Shown: positions 31,776-38,177 of the stretch, one piece after another
Position numbering within the stretch: the first letter of the stretch is position 1
How the letters are laid out: every line of letters begins with the position of its first letter
Virus record (IMG/VR): IMGVR_UViG_3300029319_000091
Span: 1,697 to 44,293 of that record
Origin: a virus
Reading direction: 5' to 3' (one strand)
DNA: 42,597 nucleotides
Translations under genes and position numbers: made by a program
Notes under the pieces: model-generated
Told to the model about the DNA's origin: nothing
The model's input: only the letters and a program-made list of their open reading frames with translations
Database searches by the model: none

Positions 31776-32990
31776 TTAAATTAAAACCACTTCCCCGAAA
31801 GGTTCGCACCCCTCGAAGTAAGGCTCTCTACCATTGCTGGCCCAGATCACTGGGTAGCTTGGCACCTCGAAGTTAACACCGTGGTATGCATCAGGGCCAA
31901 CGTCACCATACCCATCAGTGAAATAGATCAAAGCGTGAGGAAAGATCTGCTCATGTTCTACCCAGTTAAAAACTGGGTTAAATGCGGTGCCGCCCCCGCC
32001 ATAGAACTTAAGCTCGATATCTTCGCCCCTATCGAAAGAGACCGCCTTTCTCACCTCGCTATCACAGTAGACTATGTGAATTCTGGTCGGGTTGATCTCA
32101 TCCACAATATCCTGAGTGTGTGTGCCGATCTCAGCAAGCTCGACCAGAGTTAGTGAGCAAGAGGTATCGATACCGATAACCAGCTCCCCATCAGGTGTGG
32201 TGAGGTTCCCAGGTAGGATCAATCCCTGATGGACAAACCGCCTGTTCACGCTGGCATAGCTTTGGTCAGTGATCACCTGATCATGCAAGTGATCCTTGAT
32301 GATCTGATACCACGGCTGCACTGCACCCTTGTGGGAATCGATCACATCCCTGATCTGAGCATCAGAATTACCCTTGCCGATCTTCTTTTCAATCTGAGCG
32401 GCCTGATGTACCTCTTCTGCGATAGAGACTTCTTCTTCTGATATCCCAGCAGCATCAAGCACCTTGCCCTGATCATCCACCGCATCAAGCACTTCGCCCC
32501 ACTCACCGTCAGAGATCGAGTATTCGCCTTCACTGTCATCAGGATCCCCAGTGCCGTCCTCAGGGTTCTCAGCCAGCTTCCTCTTAAGATCCGCATAGAT
32601 GCGCTCAGAAGCCCAGCCAATATACTTAGAGTCAATCAGCCCATCCTCAGGCATCGTGAAACCAGCGGATACTAGACCTCCATTGATAGCGTAATCGCAG
32701 GCTTCGTTCCAGAGCTTGTGTTCGTAGTTGCCTATGAGCTTCCTTGTATGGTGACAGTACGAAACGTGAGCGCACTCGTGTGCCAAAACAAACACGATCT
32801 CTGGGACAGTCTTCTCGACAACCCAATCGGGGTTGTAGAAGATATGCTTACCATCAGTAGCCATCGTGCGAACTTGGTTAGTGGACACGATCTCCATCCG
32901 ATAGAGCAGGGCCGTATAGAATGGATGGTCTCGAACCATCCTTTTCTTGGCCTTAGCTATTGTACGTTCAGCTATAAATGCATTGTTCAT
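31776..32990 (-). CDS. DUF2201-type metallopeptidase + VWA-like protein
   Basis: This 404-residue protein has two domains. The N-terminal putative metallopeptidase (about 5-190) carries HECAH (71-75) in VLAHECAHVSYCHH and the NEACDYAING motif typical of this family. A linker rich in Asp and Glu follows. The C-terminal VWA-like domain has a MIDAS motif DTSCS (about 274-278), GGGGTAFNP and ALIYFTDGYGD, which bind Mg2+. This is the DUF2201 (VWA-like) architecture, usually paired with a MoxR AAA+ ATPase, as found two genes upstream. It starts 10 bases after the coiled-coil gene. Confidence 0.88.
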   Translation of the reverse strand: MNNAFIAERTIAKAKKRMVRDHPFYTALLYRMEIVSTNQVRTMATDGKHIFYNPDWVVEKTVPEIVFVLAHECAHVSYCHHTRKLIGNYEHKLWNEACDYAINGGLVSAGFTMPEDGLIDSKYIGWASERIYADLKRKLAENPEDGTGDPDDSEGEYSISDGEWGEVLDAVDDQGKVLDAAGISEEEVSIAEEVHQAAQIEKKIGKGNSDAQIRDVIDSHKGAVQPWYQIIKDHLHDQVITDQSYASVNRRFVHQGLILPGNLTTPDGELVIGIDTSCSLTLVELAEIGTHTQDIVDEINPTRIHIVYCDSEVRKAVSFDRGEDIELKFYGGGGTAFNPVFNWVEHEQIFPHALIYFTDGYGDVGPDAYHGVNFEVPSYPVIWASNGREPYFEGCEPFGEVVLI

Positions 32991-33896: not shown

Positions 33897-34976
33897 TTAT
33901 TCTCCTAGTTGGTTATCAATTTTGAACTGTATGTACTCCTGGGTTTCTTTGAAATCAGGATCACGGCCTATCGCAAGGGCAAACAGAACCGCTATCAGCT
34001 CATCGTCATATTTGGCAAGCCACTTGATAGCATTGCCGATGTTGGATCTCTCGCACTTTGCTGCAAGCTGAGCGCAAACCGCATAGATCGTGTTGATCTG
34101 GGATGGCACTGGCACACTGTCAGGATCGTCCAAAATCTGAGCAAAGCTTGGAATATCCCTCATTACCTTCAGGAAAGATGAGAACTCTGAGCCTGCTCCA
34201 ATTCCCACTGCCCCTATGATCGAGTCGGCCTCGATCTTCTTAGGTAGACCACACTTGATGATCTCAGAAACGAACTCCCACGAGCGTGGAGTAGCTACTG
34301 CTATGTGTCCCTTAGGGGCACCCCCGTCGAGGTACTCGTGGAGCAGTCCTCCATTCTCAGAGCTTGGTGCCCCTCGAAACTGAATGAATGCGATCACCTC
34401 GTGAGCCACGCCATTTTGGTATGCCCACTCAGTCCACTCAGACACACTAGGCACCACGTTAAAGTGCGGAGCAAAGCGATTCATCAGGGCTGGATCCACG
34501 CGACCATGTACCCCAGCACCATCTTCAGGACGATTAGAGGCGGCTACTATGTGCCAGCCTTTGGGGTGTATGTACGAGCCTAATCTACCGTCAGTCATTA
34601 GCTGGTAGAGACTAGCCTGTACTGAAGCCATCCCCAGCAATATCTCATCAATGAAGGTGATACCGAACTCACCGTCCCTCTCGACGTTAGGTAGCCAGCG
34701 TGGGGGAGCAAAATCGGTCTCATGGTCAATGATCTCTGGAACCCCTCGTGTATCGACTGCGTCGATCTGTGAGGTTCTAAGGTCTAGAAGGCCCCATTGG
34801 TTGCCAGTGGTCTCAGAGAGAGAAGCCACTATCGACTTAACGATAGCGGATTTTGCCACTCCATAGGCACCCCACAAAAAAGGATGCAGTTTTGTCCTCG
34901 GATCTTCTCTTAAGACAAATGTCTCAATAGCCGTGGCCGCTGACTGTGTTGTTACTGTGCTTATGTTAAAAGCCAT
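33897..34976 (-). CDS. MoxR-like AAA+ ATPase
   Basis: This 359-residue protein is a MoxR-family ATPase. Walker A is GAYGVAKS (36-43), with Ala where Gly normally precedes Lys. Walker B is ITFIDEIL, and a MoxR-type insert GLLDLRTSQIDAVDTRGVPE precedes it. Sensor 1 and arginine-finger region are VAASNRPEDGAGVHGRVDPA and LMNRF. MoxR ATPases remodel or insert cofactors with VWA partners; the VWA protein is two genes downstream. The ATG at 34976 has AGGAG seven bases upstream and follows a hammerhead ribozyme. Confidence 0.88.
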   Translation of the reverse strand: MAFNISTVTTQSAATAIETFVLREDPRTKLHPFLWGAYGVAKSAIVKSIVASLSETTGNQWGLLDLRTSQIDAVDTRGVPEIIDHETDFAPPRWLPNVERDGEFGITFIDEILLGMASVQASLYQLMTDGRLGSYIHPKGWHIVAASNRPEDGAGVHGRVDPALMNRFAPHFNVVPSVSEWTEWAYQNGVAHEVIAFIQFRGAPSSENGGLLHEYLDGGAPKGHIAVATPRSWEFVSEIIKCGLPKKIEADSIIGAVGIGAGSEFSSFLKVMRDIPSFAQILDDPDSVPVPSQINTIYAVCAQLAAKCERSNIGNAIKWLAKYDDELIAVLFALAIGRDPDFKETQEYIQFKIDNQLGE

Positions 34977-35003
34977 ATTCAAACTCCTAGTTATAGTTAG
35001 TTA

Positions 35004-35063
35004 TCCAAGACCCCCGATAGGGGGTTTCGAGGCGGGAACTACCCGCCCAGCTCATCAGTTGGA
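35004..35063 (-). ncRNA. Hammerhead ribozyme HHR1 (type I)
   Basis: Read on the minus strand: TCCAA (35063-35059), core CTGATGA (35058-35052), stem II GGCGGG/CCCGCC with loop TAGTT (35047-35031) closed by a G-C pair with a CT bulge and a G-U pair, then GAAA (35028-35025). Stem III is CCCCC-TATC-GGGGG (35024-35011), followed by TC and TTGGA (35008-35004), which re-pairs with TCCAA as stem I. All invariant core bases are present. Cleavage is predicted between 35009 and 35008. It lies between the stop of the 35071 gene and the MoxR start. Confidence 0.9.
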
Positions 35064-36089: not shown

Positions 36090-36115
36090 TATCCAATTCT
36101 CCTAGTTAGCGGGTT

Positions 36116-36173
36116 GTCATCTTCAAGGTGCAAGGTTCCCAGCCTACGCACGACCCCCAGAGGGGGTTTCGAC
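36116..36173 (-). ncRNA. Hammerhead-like element HHR3, altered core
   Basis: On the minus strand this element starts in the stop codon of the 36173 gene as GTC, GAAA (36170-36167), stem III CCCCC-TCT-GGGGG (36166-36154), then TC and a closed stem I (GTGC...GCAC, 36151-36128, with an inner AGG/CCT pair). GAC (36118-36116) closes with GTC. This is the type II order of HHR4. The bases where CTGATGA should be read CTTGAAGAT, so cleavage is doubtful: a decayed or variant copy. Confidence 0.45.
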
Positions 36174-36403
36174 TATGCTGCGCGGGTAGCTGGCCCCCTT
36201 AGATCAAAACTGATCGAGTATTGATGGTCTCCCAGATCTCTCTTGAGTATGTACTGCTCGATCACTTCCTGACCCCTAAAGAAACTGTCAGCAAAGTAAG
36301 AAAACACCAAGTGATCATTGTGAGAATCTCTGACAGTGATCTCGCAGAGGTTGTCATCTAGCAGCACGAGTTTGATAAAGAAAAAACGGTAAGGTAATGG
36401 CAT
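36173..36403 (-). CDS. Small protein, unknown
   Basis: From the ATG at 36403, which overlaps the preceding stop (TAATG), this is a 76-residue protein: MPLPYRFFFIKLVLLDDNLC, then EITVRDSHNDHLVFSYFADS and a basic end. Probably a small beta-rich domain. Its stop TAG is also the first part of the hammerhead-like element HHR3. Confidence 0.55.
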   Translation of the reverse strand: MPLPYRFFFIKLVLLDDNLCEITVRDSHNDHLVFSYFADSFFRGQEVIEQYILKRDLGDHQYSISFDLRGPATRAA

Positions 36404-36615
36404 TAGATGTGTCCTCCAGATATTTTCAGACCCGCTGCGAAGGAGGCAAAATAAGCTCCCCAGAGGCCCCAGTTGATCGCTGCGATCTCTAGAGTGCTTA
36501 GGTCGGTGTTTGCCTCCAGCCATAGGTCAATGACCCCCAGACCGGCGGCAGTGACTACGATGCTCATGACTACAAATAGAGTGATAAACGTGAGTGATAA
36601 GATTAGAAATTTCAT
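36403..36615 (-). CDS. Two-segment small membrane protein
   Basis: This 70-residue protein has two hydrophobic segments (about 2-29, FLILSLTFITLFVVMSIVVT; about 45-64, IAAINWGLWGAYFASFAAGL) separated by an acidic loop, so it should sit in the inner membrane. Its leader carries the AACTAGGAG cassette and the best hammerhead ribozyme. Function unknown; a holin, superinfection or host-takeover protein would fit the size. Confidence 0.65.
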   Translation of the reverse strand: MKFLILSLTFITLFVVMSIVVTAAGLGVIDLWLEANTDLSTLEIAAINWGLWGAYFASFAAGLKISGGHI

Positions 36616-36638: not shown

Positions 36639-36696
36639 TTCCAAGACCCCCATAAGGGGGTTTCGATCAATCACCAATTGATCTCATCAGTTGGAA
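36639..36696 (-). ncRNA. Hammerhead ribozyme HHR2 (type I, canonical)
   Basis: On the minus strand: TTCCAA (36696-36691), CTGATGA (36690-36684), stem II GATCAAT-TGGTG-ATTGATC (36683-36665, 7 bp perfect), GAAA (36664-36661), stem III CCCCC-TTAT-GGGGG (36660-36647), TC, then TTGGAA (36644-36639), which pairs with the first six bases. Every invariant hammerhead base is present, including the GTC cleavage triplet. Cleavage is predicted between 36645 and 36644. It starts two bases after the TAG of the 36698 gene and ends 7 bases before the next AACTAGGAG. Confidence 0.95.
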
Positions 36697-36697
36697 T

Positions 36698-37051
36698 CTA
36701 CAAGGCCCTCCTAAATGTGATTAGGCCGTGTTCGTAGTACTTGACCTCTATCTGGTCTCCCTCGTTAAAGATCTCACCAATGCGCTTCTCGTGGAGATCT
36801 ATGATGGGCCTGCTTGCAGTCACCGCTCGATCACCGCCCAAGCTAGGACAAAGCTCAATCGACTCAGGGCCGTAGTAGACCTTGTATGTCTCCCCAGCGT
36901 GGAACTGAGCAGCCTCAAGCTTTTTGCCCTCGATCCATATTCGGTATGCCCTCTTGGTCTTCTTGACCTTGGTTTTTCCAGAGGCTACTGGCTCTACAAA
37001 ATTAACCACTTCCGACCTTCTATCTTCTAGCTCTTGTTTTATCTGATCCAT
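36698..37051 (-). CDS. AbrB/SymE-like small protein (candidate)
   Basis: From the ATG at 37051 (AGGAG eight bases upstream) this is a 117-residue protein. The middle RAYRIWIEGKKLEAAQFHAG followed by ETYKVYYGPESIEL looks like the swapped-hairpin pattern of SymE/AbrB-type proteins ('R..G..L..AGF..G..'), and a second strand set (EKRIGEIFNEGDQIEVKYYE) repeats the theme. I recall relatives beside PAPS-reductase-like genes in other phages, as here. DNA binding is possible but unproven. Confidence 0.55.
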   Translation of the reverse strand: MDQIKQELEDRRSEVVNFVEPVASGKTKVKKTKRAYRIWIEGKKLEAAQFHAGETYKVYYGPESIELCPSLGGDRAVTASRPIIDLHEKRIGEIFNEGDQIEVKYYEHGLITFRRAL

Positions 37052-37075
37052 TTTCAATTCTCCTAGTTGTGACTT

Positions 37076-37131
37076 GTCTCATCAGCGATCAAGTAGTCAT
37101 CTTGGCCGGACTCCCCGAAGGGAGTTTCGAC
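37076..37131 (-). ncRNA. Hammerhead ribozyme HHR4 (type II)
   Basis: On the minus strand: GTC (37131-37129), GAAA (37128-37125), stem III CTCCC-TTCG-GGGAG (37124-37111, a stable UUCG loop), TC, a closed stem I (CGGCCAAG / CTTGATCG around ATGACTA, 37108-37086, one mismatch), CTGATGA (37085-37079), then GAC (37078-37076), which pairs with the first GTC as a short open stem II. This is the circularly permuted type II form. The 3-bp stem II is its weak point. Cleavage is predicted between 37109 and 37108. It starts inside the stop codon of the PP-loop gene. Confidence 0.75.
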
Positions 37132-38149: not shown

Positions 38150-38177
38150 ATTATACTCAATTACGCATTACGGTCAA
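38150..38177 (-). promoter_or_regulatory. Sigma70-like promoter of the ribozyme operon
   Basis: On the minus strand -35 TTGACC (38177-38172) and -10 TATAAT (38155-38150) are separated by 16 bp, the best promoter match in the window. Transcription should begin near 38143 and leave a leader of about 60 bases before the PP-loop gene. The 13-bp direct repeats cover the -35 box and spacer. Confidence 0.8.

Follow-up and report, generated by a model that had tools for sequence, protein, structure and literature searches.

What does a hammerhead ribozyme (HHR) do directly in front of a viral ATPase gene, and is it kept there for its cut? The question is raised by a 42,597-nt stretch of viral DNA (the window), comprising positions 1697 to 44293 of the 48,286-base record IMGVR_UViG_3300029319_000091, in which an earlier note had placed a type I HHR just upstream of a MoxR gene. 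This element, designated ribozyme B, is by its structure a complete type I HHR with predicted self-cleavage. The CTGATGA, GAAA, and cleavage context named in the note are all present, on the minus strand (the note gave no strand), and the MoxR-like gene indeed starts 32 nt downstream.

The minus-strand RNA of ribozyme B, from 35063 to 35004, reads TCCAA-CTGATGA-GCTGGGCGGGTAGTTCCCGCCTC-GAA-ACCCCCTATCGGGGGT-C-TTGGA. Its catalytic core is canonical, with CUGANGA present as CTGATGA (35058 to 35052) and GAA at 35028 to 35026. A 35025 and T 35010 form the A15.1-U16.1 pair, H17 is a C (35009) and not a G, and the cut is predicted between 35009 (C17) and 35008. In the model alignment, stem I is open and stems II and III are closed by loops. 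Stem I has 5 bp (TCCAA/TTGGA, 35063 to 35059 and 35008 to 35004) and stem III has 5 bp plus an A-U pair (ACCCCC/GGGGGT), which upholds the two 5-bp stems of the note and adds the A-U pair to the second. Stem II totals 8 bp, made up of GGCGGG/CCCGCC, a G-U pair, and a closing G-C, with a CT bulge. The note was right that stem II still pairs while sharing no letters with that of copy A, the other type I HHR of the window, and it overlooked the 2-nt bulge and the G-U pair. Three other family members (L134, L136, and L153) carry a bulge at the same place in stem II. The folding energy of the element equals -27.8 kcal/mol (z score, -2.70).

Because the Rfam cut-offs are blind to ribozyme B, a covariance model (R1) was built from 33 related HHRs, including copy A and excluding copy B. 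When searched against the window (42.6 kb, filters off), R1 recovered B at 67.8 bits (E value, 5.6e-15). Copy A, a training sequence, scored 83.7 bits, and two lone stem III halves were matched as well. In addition, a rule-based scanner covering HHR types I, II, and III returned 341 matches in 2.3 Mb of loci and none in the reversed sequences. The R1 score, the 341 versus 0 scanner matches, and the fold z score together exclude chance as the origin of copy B. The scanner is strict and misses variants (those of L097, L013, L083, and L098 were recognized by eye or with Rfam), so that absences of HHRs are less certain than presences. It found no further HHR in the two end stretches of the record outside the window, and a DNA similarity search of 34.8 to 37.2 kb against cultured phages gave no match.

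The note had taken the unlike stems II of A and B as covariation. Two copies in one genome are thin evidence by themselves, but the family alignments uphold the claim. In alignment A3 (33 sequences), 92% of the cells pair and both sides change in 14 of 24 pairs, giving a covariation score of 0.356 versus 0.133 in shuffles; when the partner is slid by 1 to 3 columns, the signal is lost in every register. Alignment A5, which consists of 42 model matches including copy B and the pre-MoxR copies of relatives, agrees with this, 17 of 19 pairs being changed on both sides, in an alignment that is biased towards structure by being fitted to the model. The covariation extends over stems I, II, and III and a predicted pseudoknot in which loop II pairs with nucleotides immediately 3' of stem I. 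The variable pseudoknot pair in A3 is AU in 18 sequences, GC in 13, and GU in 2, and is broken in none. Across all loop types, at least four Watson-Crick pairs can form in 70 of 139 distinct loop/tail combinations (shuffles: mean, 25.7; maximum, 37), with solutions as distinct as TGGT/ACCA, TAGTT/AACTA (copy B), TTGCT/AGCAA, TGGC/GCCA, and TGATT/AATCA. A tertiary contact between the stem I and stem II regions is therefore predicted.

To follow the site beyond the window, MoxR relatives were fetched by protein alone, with ribozymes not considered. The 41 representatives derive from metagenomic contigs, and many are fragments. In the clade of the window (10 representatives; support, 100/100), an HHR lies directly upstream of MoxR in 10 of 10, the genes flanking the site are conserved, and the MoxR proteins sharing the occupied site are 41 to 54% identical to that of the window. 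The HHRs are not of one type: seven are type I, two are type II (both above the Rfam cut-off; L043, 47.0 bits; L047, 37.5 bits), and one is type III (L061; Rfam E value, 4.9e-8). The sister of the window, L043, carries type II where the window carries type I, and the tree requires several changes of HHR type. Another MoxR clade, separate from the first and comprising 14 representatives, contains eight type I HHRs, two of type III (L097, Rfam E value of 2.6e-7; L013, by eye), and two with core changes, the remaining two having no HHR. Since HHR-free MoxR lineages sit between the two clades, HHRs at this site were probably either acquired repeatedly or frequently lost.

In the type III element of L013 (2700 to 2850), the stem II position seems to be taken by three successive hairpins; the other type III element upstream of MoxR in this clade spans 2411 to 2464 of L097. 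In a second phage lineage, L086 to L122, type III recurs after MoxR and after the VWA gene (e.g., L088:4639 and 7185), and its stem I loop hardly varies (ATGTGTAT).

That permutations replace one another at a single site argues most strongly for conservation of the cut rather than of a particular RNA shape. On balance, we favor the reading that self-cleavage in the MoxR leader is under selection in an environmental phage lineage, in which a cut is required at this site but every permutation can supply it, with types I, II, and III replacing each other at one orthologous gap of a ribozyme-insulated polycistron whose constant client is the MoxR-VWA pair.

Strand and position are biased. Near MoxR, 196 HHRs lie on the same strand as the gene and none on the opposite strand. 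Among 199 distinct HHRs, from related contigs, 170 are followed on the same strand by an ATG with a Shine-Dalgarno sequence 10 to 90 nt downstream, compared to none on the opposite strand and 10% of random same-strand sites. Type I copies start approximately at the stop codon of the preceding gene (median, 1 nt). With this placement, the predicted cut would leave the downstream gene a short leader with a ribosome binding site, of 32 nt in the case of copy B. The share of HHRs upstream of MoxR is inflated by the MoxR searches, and among loci found by ribozyme pattern only, a MoxR relative is present in 30 of 147. Most genes downstream of HHRs encode differing small proteins, MoxR being the sole large recurrent family, in a count that the MoxR searches enriched. 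In bacterial genomes, only one of 52 pattern matches in 257 Gb is well structured, and the family thus looks virus-specific.

The varied small genes downstream would also be expected if the HHRs were a mobile or selfish cassette of intergenic regions, spread by recombination among gaps and phages, tolerated where a gap is safe, and cleaving without benefit. That a phage carries many copies whose stem I and tail are nearly identical fits this explanation too. However, it leaves the absence of wrong-strand HHRs near MoxR and the exact spacing before start codons unaccounted for, the compensatory changes in all stems show selection on the fold, and the copying of a single cassette does not predict an orthologous MoxR gap that stays filled while its topology shifts between types I, II, and III. 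We regard the cassette as unlikely, though it is the best of the alternatives. Less probable still is a folded RNA that has lost cleavage and serves as a stabilizing 5' hairpin or a protein-binding site. Such a role would accommodate the core changes that some relatives have at the MoxR site (L083, CCGATGA; L098, CTGACGT) as well as a probably damaged type II-like copy in the window, but CUGANGA, GAA, A15.1-U16.1, and H17 are intact in B and most relatives, and the three permutations have only the catalytic core in common and no outer shape.

Within the window, ribozyme B belongs to a minus-strand operon of approximately 38.1 to 31.3 kb. According to the open reading frame (ORF) list, this operon has four gaps of at least 70 nt, each with one HHR element, all other gaps being at most 9 nt (Table 1). 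The earlier note had seen two of these four sites, A and B, and missed the type II HHR at 37.1 kb, the type II-like copy at 36.1 kb, and the pseudoknot.

Table 1. Features of the HHR-bearing operon and its surroundings (window positions).
Feature	Position	Strand	Basis and remarks
Promoter-like TTGACC-16-TATAAT, 11/12	38150..38177	minus	Consensus match only; just upstream of the first gene of the operon
Type II HHR, complete	37070..37131	minus	RF02276, scanner, sequence; predicted cut between 37109 and 37108
Type I HHR, ribozyme A	36639..36697	minus	R1; RF00163 under cut-off; predicted cut between 36645 and 36644
Type II-like hammerhead	36111..36173	minus	Stem III half by R1 (near 36.15 kb); sequence and fold
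Type I HHR, ribozyme B, stem I to stem I	35004..35063	minus	Sequence and model R1
CT bulge of ribozyme B, after first base pair of stem II	35049..35050	minus	Sequence; R1 alignment places an insertion there
Predicted pseudoknot of B, loop II TAGTT (35041-35037) with AACTA (35002-34998) just 3' of stem I	34998..35041	minus	5 Watson-Crick pairs
Shine-Dalgarno AGGAG in the 32-nt leader left on MoxR mRNA after the predicted cut	34984..34988	minus	Sequence
MoxR-like AAA+ ATPase gene, directly downstream of B	33897..34976	minus	phrog_1297, E 6e-61; Pfam AAA_5 just below cut-off
VWA/metallopeptidase-like partner gene (DUF2201), downstream of MoxR, same operon	31776..32990	minus	Pfam PF13203, 8e-39; PF09967, 1e-16

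Ribozyme A precedes the start of the gene at 36403 to 36615 by 29 nt. The complete type II HHR lies upstream of the gene at 36698 to 37051 and scores 24.7 bits with RF02276 (E value of 0.0022 in 121 bases), under the cut-off of 37. Its loop I TGACT (37099 to 37095) pairs with the 3' tail AGTCA (37074 to 37070) in a 5-bp pseudoknot, and its stem III half is the R1 match at 37110 to 37128. The type II-like copy has CUUGAAGAU, with two extra U residues, where CUGANGA is expected, and retains its stems, the GUC/GAC of stem II, and part of the pseudoknot; it is probably damaged and may be dead, and could represent either a decaying copy or an unusual core variant. A consensus scan detected no second minus-strand promoter match inside the operon. 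The MoxR and DUF2201/VWA pair resembles gp24-gp25 annotated in an N4-like phage. The label "HNH endonuclease" that PHROGs gives to the VWA protein is not supported by its Pfam matches.

Taken as a whole, ribozyme B is probably a cis-acting, self-cleaving type I HHR, one of several that would cut the operon mRNA co-transcriptionally into units. The operon would probably be read as one long message from the promoter near 38.15 kb, and each hammerhead would fold and cut upon leaving the RNA polymerase, stabilized by the pseudoknot of loop II with the strand 3' of stem I. The resulting units would begin approximately 30 to 60 nt before a Shine-Dalgarno sequence and start codon. Upstream of MoxR, the cut would produce a MoxR-VWA message that starts with a 5'-hydroxyl and keeps 32 nt of leader containing the Shine-Dalgarno sequence, and the upstream message would terminate in a 2',3'-cyclic phosphate. 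The phage would probably benefit by having the expression, translation, and decay of neighboring genes separated, as with the synthetic RiboJ insulator. The structure, the covariation, the strand and position bias, and the conserved site are computational results, whereas self-cleavage, the RNA ends that it yields, and its influence on expression are inferred from analogy to this insulator and to the phage HHRs studied by Perreault et al. 2011: comparable natural HHRs of phages are active in vitro and in Escherichia coli, and such pseudoknots speed cleavage (PMC3088659). In synthetic constructs, a ribozyme ahead of the ribosome binding site both insulates expression and increases it (PMC6993053).

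Since single genes lie between several same-strand HHRs and HHRs can ligate, the RNA between successive ribozymes might instead be released and joined again as a circular or otherwise stable molecule, in the manner of viroid-like elements. This seems very improbable, given that the released segments are ordinary protein genes and that Perreault et al. 2011 detected neither spliced nor circular products when they searched comparable arrangements for them (PMC3088659). A transcription terminator or attenuator hairpin resembling a hammerhead, suggested by GC-rich stems II and III in an intergenic gap, can practically be dismissed, as no T run follows B, a terminator has no need of CUGAUGA and GAAA, and a terminator scan had no match at any of the four HHR sites.

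Several observations nonetheless weigh against a cleaving, selected ribozyme B. Nothing in the window matches Rfam at the gathering cut-offs; with a lowered threshold, RF00163 lists copy A at 27.0 bits (E value, 6.5e-4; cut-off, 34) and does not list B. The gathering score that both copies miss is a database threshold and not a biochemical criterion. The 2-nt bulge of ribozyme B adjoins the core. MoxR phages without an HHR exist (L062 to L082 and similar contigs, cultured N4-like phages, and cyanophages), so that the HHR is not needed for MoxR in general. Among cultured MoxR phages, S-TIM61, XC38, Vibrio 1.025.O, phiFa, G19, and St11Ph5 have no HHR near MoxR, and the cultured phages closest by terminase (HTVC027P, HTVC023P, DSL-LC04, and 023Pt_psg01) lack both an annotated MoxR and, within their first 50 kb, any HHR. 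Lastly, contig L037 is near-identical and contributes no independent evidence. A second record, IMGVR_UViG_3300037962_000140 (81,920 bases; L037, L040, and L041), is 100% identical over the compared stretches although far longer than the 48,286-base record from which the window comes.

HHR-flanked phage genes were already known (Perreault et al. 2011, PMC3088659), and the role of HHRs in prokaryotes and their phages has been described as an open question (PMC6155905). We found no paper linking hammerhead, MoxR, and phage, in a literature coverage without most subscription journals or Weinberg et al. 2015 (RAGATH RNAs). What appears to be new is a constant partner gene, together with a single site at which all three permutations are exchanged. 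An occupied MoxR leader with a changing permutation allows selection for the cut to be told apart from inheritance of a single sequence, and provides a fixed site where HHR function can be tested.

The closest relatives are the bacterial and phage HHRs of Perreault et al. 2011 (PMC3088659; RF00163), which share the core, the three-way junction, the open stem I, and the loop II-tail pseudoknot, and also occur as several copies flanking genes on long phage transcripts. Unlike these, the copies in the window score below the Rfam cut-offs, and whereas the genes flanked there are not constant, here MoxR recurs and the same gap takes any of the three permutations. Both type I copies also match RAGATH-1-hammerhead (RF03152) weakly, at 29.9 and 26.8 bits, which is far below its gathering cut-off of 56.3. 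The extra stem of RAGATH-1, with a conserved 5' AGGAG, was rejected as a feature of this family (5 of 154 upstream 25-nt stretches, or 3.2%, versus 1.9% background). HHphage of haloviruses HF1 and HF2 similarly places an HHR 13 nt before an ATPase (helicase) start codon, and the mapped mRNA 5' end there equals the cleavage site (PMC3088659); it differs in being confined to a single archaeal virus pair, with a variant core and another gene. Finally, the operon is a natural counterpart of engineered ribozyme-insulated operons. In the synthetic insulator RiboJ (Lou et al. 2012, described in PMC6993053), the upstream leader is likewise removed by cleavage, but RiboJ is an engineered plant satellite HHR to which a downstream hairpin was added, whereas no such hairpin is evident in the phage leader.
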